Of a DNA stretch of 42,247 nucleotides, positions 108 to 5,954 are shown piece after piece. How positions within the stretch are numbered: position 1 is the first letter of the stretch; each line of letters starts with the position of its first letter. Below the pieces are notes generated by a model, which was given only the letters and a program-made list of their open reading frames with translations, made no database searches and was not told where the DNA came from. The stretch is from Microbacteriaceae bacterium (lineage in GTDB: Bacteria > Actinomycetota > Actinomycetes > Actinomycetales > Microbacteriaceae). The position numbers were made by a program, and so were the translations under genes. The DNA is taken from contig SKHB01000005.1 in the NCBI GenBank assembly GCA_007117135.1, forward strand, positions 1 through 42,247, given 5' to 3'.

Positions 108-145
108 CAGGCGGTCCCACACCAGTGGGGCCGCCTGTGTGTTTT
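108..145 (+). terminator. Intrinsic terminator of tRNA-Leu
   Basis: A 13-bp stem (108-120 with 125-137, one G-U pair) closes an ACCA loop and is followed by GTG then TTTT at 142-145. It lies 8 nt past the tRNA end and separates the tRNA from the SOS promoter downstream. Confidence 0.85.
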
Positions 146-150
146 CCGGG

Positions 151-180
151 TTGTGTGATGTCAGTGGACAGTGGCACAAT
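151..180 (+). promoter_or_regulatory. Putative promoter of imuA'-imuB-dnaE2
   Basis: A -35-like TTGTGT (151-156) and a -10-like CACAAT (175-180) are 18 bp apart. The predicted transcription start is about 187-189, which coincides with the ATG at 188. The mRNA would then be leaderless, which agrees with the absence of a Shine-Dalgarno sequence. The -10 abuts and shares one base with the LexA box at 180-195, so repressor binding would block it. This is assigned by eye; the hexamers are only moderate matches. Confidence 0.45.
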
Positions 181-195
181 CGAACATATGTTCGA
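180..195. promoter_or_regulatory. LexA-binding site (SOS box)
   Basis: The 16-bp sequence TCGAACATATGTTCGA is a perfect palindrome and matches the actinobacterial SOS box TCGAAC-N4-GTTCGA in every fixed position. It overlaps the putative -10 and the proposed imuA' start codon (188-190). Its position ahead of a DNA-damage mutagenesis cassette is the expected one. I found no second copy in the window. Confidence 0.93.
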
Positions 196-946
196 ATCAA
201 CGGTGGCTTCACTCCCCCAGACTCACGGTGTGCGCTCGCTTAAAGCGACCACCCTGGGGGAGCTTCGCCAGCGGATTCGACACCTTGAACACGGTCGTTT
301 TCCCCTCCAAACCATTCCCGTCTCACCCGGTTTGGACAGTCTTTTTCCCGAAAAAGGCCTCACCCCGGGGGTTGTGTATAACCTCTCCCCGCACACCTCA
401 GTGATGTGGGCACTGATTGCTGAGGCGACTCAAAACGGCCACTATGTGGCCACGGTGGGGAGGCACCACTTAGGGTTTCACGCCGCTATCGAATACGGGG
501 TCGTCTTAGAGCGCCTGATCGTGGTTCCCCCGATTGGCCACCAGTGGTGGTCGGCAGTTGCGGCGCTGGTTGACGTGGTGTCTATCGTGGTGTTTTCCGC
601 CAGCGGTCCACTGCCTTCACCCCGTGCCAGAGACACGTTGACGGCCCGAGCAAGAGAGCGCGGGTGTGCTCTCTTGGCCACTTCTTCCTGGCCGGGAGCT
701 TACGGCCAGGTTGTTGTTGAAGACACCCAGTGGGAGGGCCTGGGCTCGGGACACGGAGTGCTATCCAGCCACGAACTTACCCTGTGTTACACCCCCAGAC
801 ACGGGGCTTCTGCTCACCGAGTGAGACTGGTGAGGAACGGCAGCGGATCCCACGTCCTTCCCCACACGATCACCCCGGTAGTGCACCTCACTCCCGTCAC
901 GCAGGAGGGCCGTGTCATCGCCAGTGACCAGCGGGAAGCAGGCTAG
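188..946 (+). CDS. imuA': ImuA' SOS mutasome accessory protein
   Basis: About 252 aa, a RecA-fold-like accessory protein of the translesion mutasome, in which it works with ImuB and DnaE2 during damage-induced mutagenesis. Recognisable family segments are the N-terminal LGELRQRIRHLE helix, the PVSPGLDSLFP...GLTPG segment, VATVGRHHLGFHAAIEYGVVLERLIVVPP, and RARERGCALLATSSWPGAYGQ with WEGLGSGHGVLSSHEL. No intact Walker A is visible, as is usual for ImuA'. I chose the ATG at 188 because the SOS box and -10 place transcription initiation there. The in-frame ATG at 158 and a start at 125 would put the operator inside the coding region. imuB begins 2 bases after the stop, so this is the first gene of a three-gene operon. 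Confidence 0.85.
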   Translation: MFESTVASLPQTHGVRSLKATTLGELRQRIRHLEHGRFPLQTIPVSPGLDSLFPEKGLTPGVVYNLSPHTSVMWALIAEATQNGHYVATVGRHHLGFHAAIEYGVVLERLIVVPPIGHQWWSAVAALVDVVSIVVFSASGPLPSPRARDTLTARARERGCALLATSSWPGAYGQVVVEDTQWEGLGSGHGVLSSHELTLCYTPRHGASAHRVRLVRNGSGSHVLPHTITPVVHLTPVTQEGRVIASDQREAG

Positions 947-948
947 CC

Positions 949-2520
949 GTGTCTAGTCGGGTGTGTGTTGTGGTGTGTGCGGAGTGGCCGATAGCAGCGG
1001 CGTGTATTGACCCGGACACACCGGAGGGGGTGTCGGGAGAGCCATTGATGATTGTTCACGCGGGTCGTGTCACCAGTTGCTCCACTGAGGCGAAGGCGGA
1101 GGGAGTAAGAATCGGTCAGCGACTACGCGACGCGCACACCACCTGCCCCGCGGTGCGTCGTGTTCCGTGGTCGCCTGAGCGCGACCAGAGAGTGTTCGAC
1201 CGACTGCTGGCCACACTGGCTGACGTAGTCCCTGTTGCCGGGGTGGTGGAACCGGGTGTGGTGTATGTGGGCGCGGAAGGAGTCATTCGCTACTACGGCT
1301 CTGAAGACAGTGCTGCTCGCGCAATAACCGGCGCCCTAAAAAGCCTCGGAGAGGGCATGAGAGTGTCCGTGGGATACGCGGACACTCTGTTTGCTGCCCA
1401 CCAGGCGGCCGTTTATGCCGCCCACCACCCTGCAGGTCTCATCAGCGTTGCATCAGGGGGTGGTCGAGATTTTCTTGAGCCACTACCCATTACTGCCCTG
1501 GCAGATGACAATGTGGCAGCGCTGTCTGTGCAGCTGGGGATCACAACATTGGGCCAGTTTGCAGCTCTAGAACGTGACCAGGTGGCGGAGCGCTTTGGGG
1601 ACCGTGGAACACTGCTTCATCAGCTGGCCTCAGGTGAAGACCCGAGGCATCACGCCAGGAAAGAAATTCCACCGCTTAGTGATGTGGTGTGGCGAAGCGA
1701 TGACCCGGTGTTTTCTGGCGAACAGTTGTCATTCGCCGTGGCATCGTCTACCACCACGTTTGTGTCGCAGCTTCTTGACCAAGGGTGTGTGGTGCAAACA
1801 GTGGACATCACGCTGGTTGATGACCGAGGTGAACCCCACCCCAAAAGGTGGTCTCACCCCAGGTATTTCACCGCCCCTGACCTTGTTCACCGGGTGCGAT
1901 GGCAGGGCGAATCGTTGCAGAAAAACACTGCACACGACGAATACCAGCGGGGAATTGTTGAGGTGTGGTTTGTCGCACAACACCCCCATAGCGCTGCCGG
2001 ATACGAAGATTCGCTGTGGGGTAACGCCCACCGTGACACCGCTCTCCACCACGCTGTGTCGTCACTGCAAGCAACGCTTGGGCACCAAAACGTCACCCGT
2101 GTCACCACCCATCCGGGCCACGACTTTGCTGACAGCCAACAGGTGGTGGCCTGGGGAGACAAACCACCAGTGAGCACCCTCGACCAGGGGGAAGCCTGGG
2201 CGGGACAATTACCCGCCCCCCACCCTGCGACCGTCTTCACCACGCCCCTACCGGTCGCAGTGGTCGACGAGGTGGGGCGTCCCGTTCACACCACTGCGGT
2301 GGGCGCTGGTCTCACCTCCCCGCCCTACGCCTTGGTGTCACAGAACCGTCACCGACGGGTTGTGGGGTGGGCGGGGCCGTGGCCGGTGATGGAGCGCTGG
2401 TGGGAGCGAAAACCGGTGGTCCACCGTGTCCAGTTGGTCGATGACACAGGTATTGGTTGGTTAGTGAAAACAACGGGTAGCAGCGATGGCGGCTGGCTAG
2501 TGGAAGCGAGGTATGACTAG
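949..2520 (+). CDS. imuB: ImuB, catalytically inactive Y-family polymerase-like protein
   Basis: 523 aa with a GTG start. ImuB proteins share the DinB/UmuC fold but act as the hub linking DnaE2, ImuA' and the sliding clamp rather than as polymerases. The first motif reads VVVCAEWPIAAACID, where active Y-family enzymes have a DxD-type acidic site. The third motif region EPGVVYVGAEGVIRYYG lacks the catalytic SxDE, so loss of catalysis is expected. CSTEAKAEGVRIGQRLRDAHTTCP is the conserved fingers segment. Where mycobacterial ImuB carries the clamp-binding QLPLW, this protein has EDSLW at residues 353-357, a degenerate form. The stop shares one base with the dnaE2 start (TAGTG), implying translational coupling. 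High confidence in the family. Confidence 0.92.
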   Translation: MSSRVCVVVCAEWPIAAACIDPDTPEGVSGEPLMIVHAGRVTSCSTEAKAEGVRIGQRLRDAHTTCPAVRRVPWSPERDQRVFDRLLATLADVVPVAGVVEPGVVYVGAEGVIRYYGSEDSAARAITGALKSLGEGMRVSVGYADTLFAAHQAAVYAAHHPAGLISVASGGGRDFLEPLPITALADDNVAALSVQLGITTLGQFAALERDQVAERFGDRGTLLHQLASGEDPRHHARKEIPPLSDVVWRSDDPVFSGEQLSFAVASSTTTFVSQLLDQGCVVQTVDITLVDDRGEPHPKRWSHPRYFTAPDLVHRVRWQGESLQKNTAHDEYQRGIVEVWFVAQHPHSAAGYEDSLWGNAHRDTALHHAVSSLQATLGHQNVTRVTTHPGHDFADSQQVVAWGDKPPVSTLDQGEAWAGQLPAPHPATVFTTPLPVAVVDEVGRPVHTTAVGAGLTSPPYALVSQNRHRRVVGWAGPWPVMERWWERKPVVHRVQLVDDTGIGWLVKTTGSSDGGWLVEARYD

Positions 2521-5500
2521 TGGGGTGGCATAACCCACCTATTGCGTGGACAGAATACGAACGATTGCTCCGAGATGCATCCAGGCCCGGAAGTTCGCCA
2601 CCTATCGGCGCTGATGCCGGTGACTCCCCCGCGTGGTCGACGAAACGCGCCCCTTACCAGCCGCCAGTCGATGGCGACGGAGAACCACAACACACCGAAG
2701 TGTTGGTGCCCTATGCGGAACTTCACGTTCACAGCAGTTTCAGTTTCTTAGACGGGGTGTCATCACCGGAAGACTTGGTGGCGCAGGCGGCCAAAAAACG
2801 GCTACACGCCATCGCCCTCACCGACCACGACGGATTTTACGGTGTTGTTCGCTTTGCCGAAGCAGCACAGGCCCACCAGATACCCACCGTGTTTGGGTCA
2901 GAGTTGTCGCTTGGTGCCGGGGGGTCCAGGACGGAGCATCCCGACCCGCCAGGACCCCACCTGTTGGTGTTGGCCAGAGGACCGGACGGCTATCACCAGA
3001 TGGCGTCGGCATTGACGACCGGACATTTAGAGTCAGGCGAAAAAGGTGTGGTGGCCTATGACGACGATGCCTTAGCTGACCAGTTACGAGACCACGTGGT
3101 GGTGCTGACAGGCTGCCGCAAAGGGGCAGTCAGGCAAGCACTTCAGGGGCCCAAAACTCCGTCAGCATCGCAGGTTGCTGACGCTGAGCGAGAGCTTGTC
3201 CGACTAGTTGAACGCTACGGCCCAGACAACGTGGTTGTCGAGTTGTATGACCACCAACACCCGCTTGATTCTGTTCACAACGACATTTTGAACACGTTGG
3301 CTATCCGCCACCGATTGCAAGTGGTGGCAACAGGGCTTGTCCACTACGCCACTCCCGACGAGGCCCCTCTTGCCCATATGATGGCCGCTGTTCGATCCAG
3401 ACGCTCACTGGAGCACATGCGCCCCTACCTTCCCCCGGCCCCCACCGCTTTTATCCGCTCCGGTTATGACCAGGCCACCCGTTTTGCAAGGTTTCCTGGG
3501 GCGGTGTCCAACACGGTGACGCTGGCAGATGAGGTGGCGTTTTCTTTGAAAAAAGTGAAGCCCGATTTACCGCTGTCGATGGTGCCCTCCGGGCATACGT
3601 CAATGAGTTATTTGCGAATGCTGATCGCAGACGCCATCCCCCGGCGATACCCGAATGCCAGTGGGCACGTGGTGGAGCGGATTGAACGCGAGCTGGCACT
3701 AATTGAACAGAAAAATTTTGCCGGATATTTCCTCATCGTCCACGACATTGTCCAGTGGGCGAGGGCGCGGGGTATTTTGTGTCAGGGTCGAGGCTCTGCA
3801 GCTAACTCGGCGGTGTGTTTTTTGTTGGATATCACCGCTGTTGATTCGGTGTATTACAACCTGCCCTTTGAGCGTTTCCTCTCCGCTTTGAGAGATGAAG
3901 AACCTGACATTGATGTCGATTTTGAGGCCAACAGGCGTGAAGAAGTCATCCAATACGTTTACCAGCGATATGGCAGAAAGAATGCAGCCCAAGTGGCCAC
4001 CGTCATTGAATACCGGGCAAAGAATGCGGTTCGTGATGTGGCGAGGGCGCTCGGATATAGCCCCGGCCAACAGGATGCGTTTTCGAAAAACATTGAACGC
4101 CGTGGCGCCCTCGCAGAATCTGACGCCACCGCACTGCCCACACAGGTGGTGAGTTTGGCCAGGCGCATTCTCACTCTTCCCCGGCATTTAGGTATTCACT
4201 CTGGTGGCATGGTGTTAACCGATCGGCCCATCGGTGAAGTGGTACCCATCGAACACGCAAGAAAAGCCGACCGCACTGTGTTGCAGTGGGACAAAGACGA
4301 TTGTGAGTGGATGGGGCTTGTCAAGTTTGACCTGCTGGGGCTCGGTATTTTAGAAGCCATCCAACACACCCTCACGACTGCCCGCACCGTGTTGGATGAA
4401 GACTGGGAATTGGCCACTCTTCCCCGCGATGAACCCGCCGTCTACGACATGCTGTGCCGGGCAGACTCCATTGGAGTCTTCCAAGTGGAATCGAGAGCGC
4501 AGATGGCGCTTTTGCCCAGACTCCAGCCGAGAAAGTTTTACCACCTGGCTATCCAAATTGCGATGATTCGACCGGGCCCGATTCAAGGCGGCGCGGTTCA
4601 CCCGTTTGTTCGTCGAAAAGCAGGCGTTGAACCGGTCGAATATTTACACCCGGCACTCGAGTCGTGTCTGGAACGAACGTTGGGTGTTCCGGTGTTTCAG
4701 GAACAAATCATGCAAATAGCGATGGCGGTTGGTGGCTGTACCGGTGAAGACGCCGACTTGCTCAGGCGGGCCATGGGATCCAAGCGGGGCTTGGAGCGTA
4801 TAGAGAAACTTCGAGAAACGTTGTATCGAGGAATGGCGGACAGCGGCATTGACCAGGTGACCGCTGACCGTATTTACCGGATGATTCAAGCGTTTGCGAG
4901 TTTCGGTTTCGCCGAATCCCACTCGCTGAGCTTCGCCCTTCTGGTCTATGCCAGCTCGTGGTTGAAACTCCACTACCCGGCCATCTATCTGATGGGTCTT
5001 CTTCGAGCTTGGCCGATGGGTTTCTACTCCCCTGCCACCCTGGTGTCTGACGCTGAGCGTCACGGGGTGAGCGTTCTCACCCCAAACGTTCAACACTCAG
5101 ACGTTTTAGCAGGTGTTGAATCAATCGACCCTGACAGACCCCCCACAGCAACCGGCCTGCCCGACTGTTTGCACGACGTGCAACCAGATTCGGGCGAGTT
5201 TGACCCGGCTGCACCCGACATGTCTGCTCACCATCGGCGAGACGGTGAGTTGGCTGTCCGGCTGGGGTTAGCCAGCATTGATGGCATGGGGTCAGACACT
5301 GCCACCCGCATTGTTGAAGAGAGACAGCGCGGTGGTCCGTTTGCTGGCATTTATGACCTGACCAGGCGGGTGGGGCTCGGGACAAAGCAGGTGGAAGCGC
5401 TCAGTGTTGCTGGAGCGCTAGATGGCCTCGGTGTTGGCCGCAGGGAAGCGATGTGGCTGGCGGGGCCAGCCGCGACAGCGAACCCCCAGTTTTTGGCCGG

Positions 5501-5954
5501 AACCCACCAGGACATTACCCCTCCCCTTTTCCCGCCGATGAGCGACGAGGAGCTGATGCGGGCAAACCGCATCAGTACCGGCATGTCTCCAGGTGATCAT
5601 CCGATGACGTATCTGCGGGAGTGGGTGGGCGGCCAAGGTGTTGTGTCCACTGACGACCTTCGACACGTCGAGTCGGGGCGTCGGGTGTGGGTGGCGGGGG
5701 TGATTACCCACCGGCAACGTCCCGCCACCGCGAAGGGTGTGACGTTTCTCAATCTTGAAGACGAATACGGTTTGGTGAATGTGATCTGCAGCGTGGGGAT
5801 GTGGAAAAAGTATCGGCTCATTCTCCGGCACAGTACGGCAATAATTATTCGGGGCATTGTGGAGGCAAGCCCAGAAGGGGTGATATCTCTGGTTGCTGAC
5901 GGGGTGAGTGGGTTGGCCCTCTCCACACCGGTTGTGGCCAGAGACTTTCAGTAG
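2520..5954 (+). CDS. dnaE2: Error-prone DNA polymerase DnaE2
   Basis: 1144 aa, a C-family polymerase alpha subunit used for SOS-induced translesion synthesis. The N-terminus (GWHNPPIAWTEYERLL) is typical of actinobacterial DnaE2, which supports the GTG at 2520 with GAGG upstream. The PHP domain starts near residue 67 (AELHVHSSFSFLDG, H69 and H71; then ALTDHDGFYG). The catalytic acidic cluster PDIDVDFE is at D463/D465/D467, with the third Asp in KFDLLGL at D604. A helix-hairpin-helix region (GLASIDGMGSDTATRIVEER) and a C-terminal OB fold (VWVAGVITHRQRPATAKG) follow. The protein ends soon after the OB fold without the tau-binding tail of replicative DnaE1, which is usual for DnaE2. The 3' end overlaps the convergent methyltransferase gene by 7 bases. 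Confidence 0.97.
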   Translation: MGWHNPPIAWTEYERLLRDASRPGSSPPIGADAGDSPAWSTKRAPYQPPVDGDGEPQHTEVLVPYAELHVHSSFSFLDGVSSPEDLVAQAAKKRLHAIALTDHDGFYGVVRFAEAAQAHQIPTVFGSELSLGAGGSRTEHPDPPGPHLLVLARGPDGYHQMASALTTGHLESGEKGVVAYDDDALADQLRDHVVVLTGCRKGAVRQALQGPKTPSASQVADAERELVRLVERYGPDNVVVELYDHQHPLDSVHNDILNTLAIRHRLQVVATGLVHYATPDEAPLAHMMAAVRSRRSLEHMRPYLPPAPTAFIRSGYDQATRFARFPGAVSNTVTLADEVAFSLKKVKPDLPLSMVPSGHTSMSYLRMLIADAIPRRYPNASGHVVERIERELALIEQKNFAGYFLIVHDIVQWARARGILCQGRGSAANSAVCFLLDITAVDSVYYNLPFERFLSALRDEEPDIDVDFEANRREEVIQYVYQRYGRKNAAQVATVIEYRAKNAVRDVARALGYSPGQQDAFSKNIERRGALAESDATALPTQVVSLARRILTLPRHLGIHSGGMVLTDRPIGEVVPIEHARKADRTVLQWDKDDCEWMGLVKFDLLGLGILEAIQHTLTTARTVLDEDWELATLPRDEPAVYDMLCRADSIGVFQVESRAQMALLPRLQPRKFYHLAIQIAMIRPGPIQGGAVHPFVRRKAGVEPVEYLHPALESCLERTLGVPVFQEQIMQIAMAVGGCTGEDADLLRRAMGSKRGLERIEKLRETLYRGMADSGIDQVTADRIYRMIQAFASFGFAESHSLSFALLVYASSWLKLHYPAIYLMGLLRAWPMGFYSPATLVSDAERHGVSVLTPNVQHSDVLAGVESIDPDRPPTATGLPDCLHDVQPDSGEFDPAAPDMSAHHRRDGELAVRLGLASIDGMGSDTATRIVEERQRGGPFAGIYDLTRRVGLGTKQVEALSVAGALDGLGVGRREAMWLAGPAATANPQFLAGTHQDITPPLFPPMSDEELMRANRISTGMSPGDHPMTYLREWVGGQGVVSTDDLRHVESGRRVWVAGVITHRQRPATAKGVTFLNLEDEYGLVNVICSVGMWKKYRLILRHSTAIIIRGIVEASPEGVISLVADGVSGLALSTPVVARDFQ

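Follow-up and report, generated by a model that had tools for sequence, protein, structure and literature searches.

Results

The window, by which we mean the whole 42,247-nucleotide stretch of Microbacteriaceae DNA analysed here, begins with a tRNA-Leu gene (positions 15-101), followed by an SOS box and then by imuA', imuB, and dnaE2 as a cassette of adjacent genes. The SOS box (180..195, + strand), at the head of the cassette, agrees fully with the actinobacterial LexA/SOS box TCGAAC-N4-GTTCGA; the DNA pattern search returned this one exact match, against a chance expectation of 0.22 when up to one mismatch is allowed. The imuA' reading frame (125..946, + strand), 273 aa when read from GTG 125, matches NCBIfam NF058630 (ImuA', Rv3395c type) above the cut-off with an E value of 1.9e-42. 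As the SOS box falls inside this frame and overlaps an ATG at 188, the GTG start is probably too early, and the true start may be, for example, ATG 188. The third gene, dnaE2 (2520..5954, + strand), encodes an error-prone C-family polymerase of 1144 aa that matches NCBIfam NF004225 above the cut-off (1342 bits).

Between them, imuB (949..2520, + strand) encodes a protein of 523 aa whose identity is supported by a match to Pfam IMS PF00817 above the cut-off and by synteny. An AlphaFold model built with 42 sequences (mean pLDDT 85.8) finds its PDB matches among Y-family polymerases, namely Dpo4, Dbh, Pol IV, and Rev1. Inspection of the alignment shows CAEWPIAAA and GAEGVIRYYG in place of the VDMDCFF-type and SIDE-type motifs of Pol IV, and judged by these replacements ImuB is a catalytically inactive Y-family homologue. 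In the model, residues 355-364 have pLDDT below 50 and are flanked by a little-finger strand (336-344) and a helix (364-377; 2038..2079, + strand), while the C-terminus (428-522) is beta-rich. The predicted helix is a candidate RecA-NT, lying where mycobacterial ImuB carries its ImuA'-binding motif of that name (residues 360-387 in M. smegmatis). ImuB was also the sole Y-family protein found in the window's genome (G000) and in three relatives from its genus (G030, G213, and G203), whose assemblies are partly incomplete. No DinB was found in these four assemblies, and larger-genome relatives have one; the four may thus depend on the mutasome as their sole translesion system.

In mycobacterial ImuB, the pentapeptide QLPLW at residues 352-356 is followed by RecA-NT at 360-387, and its replacement by AAAAGG abolishes clamp foci and phenocopies the loss of imuB (PMC11791113, PMC10421592). 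The preliminary description of the window placed EDSLW at ImuB residues 353-357, at nearly the same residue number as QLPLW, and took it for a degenerate clamp-binding motif. The placement is correct: EDSLW lies at positions 2005-2019, within the site YEDSLWG (2002..2022, + strand; residues 352-358), with Y352 before it and G358, N359 ... ALHHAVSSLQATLG ... VVAWGD after it. The two motifs also share an alignment column, EDSLWG aligning with QLPLWG from a mycobacteria-like family (f21); mycobacteria-like genomes carry either QLPLWG or QLGLWG at this site, and the Leu-Trp core is common to nearly every family examined.

Degeneration is a different matter. Across 102 ImuB sequences (from 16 genomes in the window's genus and 86 further Microbacteriaceae genomes), the site has the consensus H-E-x-G-L-[W/F]-G. 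Residue 352 is His in 94 of the 102 (Tyr in the window), position 1 of the motif (residue 353) is Glu in 96, Met in 3, Gln in 2, and Val in 1, position 3 (355) is Gly in 99, with the Ser of the window unique, position 4 (356) is Leu in 101, position 5 (357) is Trp in 85 or Phe in 16 (101/102 together), and residue 358 is Gly in 98. Entropy is 0.08-0.48 bits at residues 352, 353, 355, 356, and 358, and 0.70 at the W/F residue 357, but 2.2-2.9 bits at the neighbours 348-351, 354, and 359, against an ImuB median of 1.66; position 2 (residue 354, Asp in the window) reaches 2.9 bits. Such low entropy beside variable neighbours marks the motif as a selected island more conserved than expected by chance, and since a degenerating motif would vary, whereas Glu1-x-Gly-Leu-Trp-Gly is kept family-wide within a variable, low-confidence linker, the site cannot be called degenerate. 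The mycobacterial Gln1 is indeed absent, as the preliminary description held, but as a lineage trait. A degeneration peculiar to the window's genome, considered separately, is ruled out by the family-wide Glu1. In a set of named strains, Glu1 was present in 47/47 ImuB from Microbacteriaceae outside Microbacterium; named Microbacterium had Gln in 9, Glu in 2, and Val in 1, and named Micrococcaceae had Ala in 11 and Gly in 6.

Compared with the canonical clamp motif, Q-phi-x-[L/M]-[F/L] (as in QL[S/D]LF), the ImuB site is likewise a pentapeptide in a flexible linker with Leu at position 4 (101/102) and an aromatic residue at position 5, and the Ser3 of the window is itself a canonical residue. 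It differs in lacking Gln1, where the window and 96/102 relatives have Glu, in lacking an aliphatic position 2, which is Asp in the window and variable in the family, and in having Trp (85), the residue of the proven mycobacterial motif, more often than Phe (16) at position 5. Relative to mycobacterial ImuB, the changes are Gln1 to Glu, the aliphatic position 2 to a variable residue (Asp in the window), and Pro3 to Gly in Microbacteriaceae (Ser in the window). Differences in clamp motif among groups of ImuB have been noted earlier (PMC12926913).

It had been proposed that QLSF (1723..1734, + strand; residues 259-262) might serve as a substitute, but it lies inside a confidently ordered little-finger helix (257-277), and a Q-motif is present there in just 11/102 relatives. 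Set within an ordered helix and not conserved as a Q-motif, it is not a credible substitute, and we reject it as a clamp motif. Nor does an intact Q-motif persist elsewhere in ImuB: scanning all 102 sequences for Qxx[LMI][FWLY] gave no other conserved occurrence and none above 11/102.

The binding pocket of the sliding clamp was compared between 31 Microbacteriaceae and 24 other actinobacterial DnaN (the latter including two second copies), with residues numbered as in E. coli K-12 DnaN. The dnaN gene was read at contig starts for 12/40 genomes and was located through GC skew in one (G148); in the window's genome, it is split over two contig ends, both of which were read (G000:C72:1-1000 and G000:C30:19700-20134), and the encoded clamp has K320 and a QPNLLMR tail. 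With the G148 sequence (LKPSF...QPNLLLR) as a 32nd clamp, subsite II is remodelled in 32/32 Microbacteriaceae clamps read. N320K is found in 29/31, the exceptions being two Microbacterium with the Asn of the other Actinobacteria (24/24), and Y323F in 27/31, while M362Q, M364N, and R365L are each present in 31/31; the other Actinobacteria have Met (20), Val (3), or Gln (1) at 362, Ile or Val at 364, and Arg at 365 in 22 of 24. Residue 152 is Thr in Microbacteriaceae and Leu in other Actinobacteria, L155I and L177V occur as well, and the clamp ends in ...YLLQPNLL[L/M]R rather than ...YLLMP[V/I]R. Among columns conserved within both groups, to which the comparison was limited, 7/15 in the pocket are changed, compared with 16/111 elsewhere (Fisher p 0.007). 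The changed columns include subsite-II residues listed previously (PMC11139829). Gln1 hydrogen-bonds the backbone carbonyls of clamp M362 and P363 (PMC3716654), and N320 sits in the subsite that Gln1 contacts (PMC11139829). The pocket is described as nearly invariant across bacteria, with only E. coli G174 and V344 listed as unconserved, and Gln1 as a signature of clamp ligands (PMC11139829). A literature search found no paper on the Microbacteriaceae sliding clamp or on N320 or M362. The clamp of a genome from another Micrococcales family (G273, f17) has Asn320, M362Q only, and a QPVR end, and is a possible intermediate.

Both clamp and ImuB were read in 50 genomes; the clamps of G056, G289, G303, and G165, whose ImuB carry Gln1 or Ala1, fall outside this sample. 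The 27 genomes with Lys320 have Glu (25), Met (1, G119), or Val (1, G148) at position 1 of the ImuB motif, whereas the 23 with Asn320 have Gln (13), Ala (5), Gly (2), Ser (2), or Thr (1) and never Glu, and the two Microbacterium genomes read for both proteins pair an Asn320 clamp with a Gln1 ImuB. Fisher's test gives 5.6e-12 for the association of Glu1 with Lys320, a value that ignores descent. On a tree built from both proteins with the sites in question removed, two changes fall at clamp position 320, with ImuB position 1 concordant in most independent pairings; given only about two events, one of them on fully supported branches, a test on independent pairs could not yield a significant association. 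Microbacterium is nested in Microbacteriaceae at 86% SH-aLRT, and its Asn320 and Gln1 may reflect either reversal or retention. Counter to the association, Lys320 also accompanies Gln1 in three DnaE1. In sister families, position 1 of ImuB is Ala, Gly, or Ser, and the clamp keeps Asn320 and a mostly canonical tail, so the loss of Gln1 does not require a remodelled clamp, and a strict coupling between clamp and ImuB is not supported.

Other clients of the clamp differ in how far they have departed from the canonical motif. Five outgroup genomes carry QFDLF (4) or QDSLF (1) as their DnaE1 motif. Within Microbacteriaceae, QVDLF or QIDLF is kept in 2/10 genomes, and the other 8/10 have [D/Q/A]-[VIF]-G-F-D-F-D-[S/A]-L-[FWLY], with Asp1 in 6/10, including the window's genome. 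A near-consensus motif is present in 99% of DnaE1 (PMC3919608), which makes the Microbacteriaceae version unusual; the motif could be a hexameric D-x-G-F-D-F or a shifted F-D-A-L-F. The DnaE1 of the window's genome (G000:C156) reads GDVGFDFDALF, compared with QFDLF in other Actinobacteria. In Microbacteriaceae, the SLF motif of the clamp-loader subunit delta is retained, which along with the Leu-Trp of ImuB represents a kept user of subsite I, and DinB C-termini, inspected by eye, retain L-W or a comparable pair, and only some have Gln1. In DnaE2, a motif between the HhH and OB domains reads Q-P-P-L-[F/L/M] in Micrococcales (Gln 70/76, Leu 74/76), of the QLPLx kind already predicted for some actinobacterial DnaE2 (PMC3919608). 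Its column in the window holds TPPLF (5517..5531, + strand; residues 1000-1004), a putative second clamp motif from which Gln1 is gone and which is weakened in the window's genus, where position 1 is D, V, R, or Q, or Thr in the window itself.

Discussion

The ImuB site and the clamp pocket have both changed in Microbacteriaceae, with the clamp showing the larger of the two changes, and taken together, Glu1 and the altered pocket suggest a contact that has been re-specified rather than broken. The site shares with the M. smegmatis and M. tuberculosis mutasome its protein family, operon order, alignment column, Leu-Trp-Gly core, and location just before RecA-NT, and from this homology and the conservation of the motif, we infer that ImuB binds the clamp through EDSLW. 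Outside the written definition of a clamp motif for want of Gln1 and an aliphatic position 2, the site most likely works like a canonical one. We consider it somewhat better than an even chance that Microbacteriaceae ImuB contacts the clamp through the linker site that mycobacterial ImuB uses, with Glu1 fitted to a re-specified subsite II. Leu4 and Trp5 (L356-W357) would enter the hydrophobic subsite I, which is unchanged in the Microbacteriaceae clamp, as in mycobacterial ImuB, while Glu1 would face the remodelled subsite II (N320K, Y323F, M362Q, M364N, and R365L). Lys320 is its likely partner, although this pairing, which draws on two concordant changes, is put forward with less assurance than the docking itself. 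For SOS-induced translesion synthesis, the site would then tether ImuB to the clamp and, by way of ImuB, bring in DnaE2 and ImuA' as well, ImuA' joining through the RecA-NT helix just downstream of the motif; a mutagenic role for Microbacteriaceae ImuB is presumed by analogy with mycobacteria. Against a fitted Glu1, a QLDLF peptide loses much of its affinity for the E. coli clamp once its Gln is changed to Glu (PMC11139829).

A natural clamp ligand without Gln1 is already known in the AMSLF of delta, and Leu-Phe by itself suffices for clamp binding (PMC11139829), and it is accordingly conceivable, if unlikely, that recognition of Gln1 has simply been relaxed, with ImuB binding mainly via Leu-Trp together with other mutasome contacts, position 1 unspecific, and Glu kept for solubility, steering, or some other property. 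The Ala, Gly, or Ser of sister families and the occurrence of Met and Val alongside Lys320 fit such a relaxation. Delta differs from ImuB in that it combines its Ala1 with a large folded interface, ImuB having a conserved acid in an unstructured linker. However, relaxation alone does not predict a Glu1 kept in 96/102 sequences, and in all 47 named strains outside Microbacterium, directly beside a position 2 at 2.9 bits.

The preliminary description had also suggested that clamp contact moved to DnaE2, in which case the ImuB site would be weak or dispensable and the Q-P-P-L-[F/L/M] motif would carry the working contact. This has some footing in relatives, whose DnaE2 keep Gln1 in 70/76 and Leu in 74/76 at the position of the DnaE1 clamp motif, in line with the earlier QLPLx prediction (PMC3919608), but not in the window, where Thr1 replaces the Gln, nor in its genus, with D, V, R, or Q. 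Since the ImuB site is moreover as conserved as ever, and mycobacteria require this ImuB motif both to form foci and for mutagenesis (PMC10421592), we regard this transfer as improbable. Slightly more improbable still is that HExGL[W/F]G is kept as an extension of RecA-NT for another partner, be it ImuA', DnaE2, or RecA, instead of the clamp; the segment directly precedes the RecA-NT helix and His352 is conserved too, but it aligns column for column with the proven mycobacterial clamp motif, and its Leu-Trp core extends to nearly every family examined.

Docking of ImuB at the linker site might form part of a broader change, namely a family-wide shift in the docking code of the clamp, in which subsite II (Lys320, Gln362, Asn364, and Leu365) selects an acid instead of Gln1 and the clients followed, ImuB with Glu1, DnaE1 mostly with Asp1, and DinB with a drifted position 1, Microbacterium having reverted to Asn320 and ImuB Gln1. 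We offer this extension tentatively, at somewhat less than even confidence. If true, it would constitute a natural case of re-specified clamp recognition across a whole family, with several pocket residues replaced and clients without Gln1, and would bear on the ways in which a hub serving many partners can alter its code. It would also have implications for clamp-ligand searches built on Q-motifs and for pocket-directed antibiotics such as griselimycin, as the mycobacterial residues they target differ in Microbacteriaceae.
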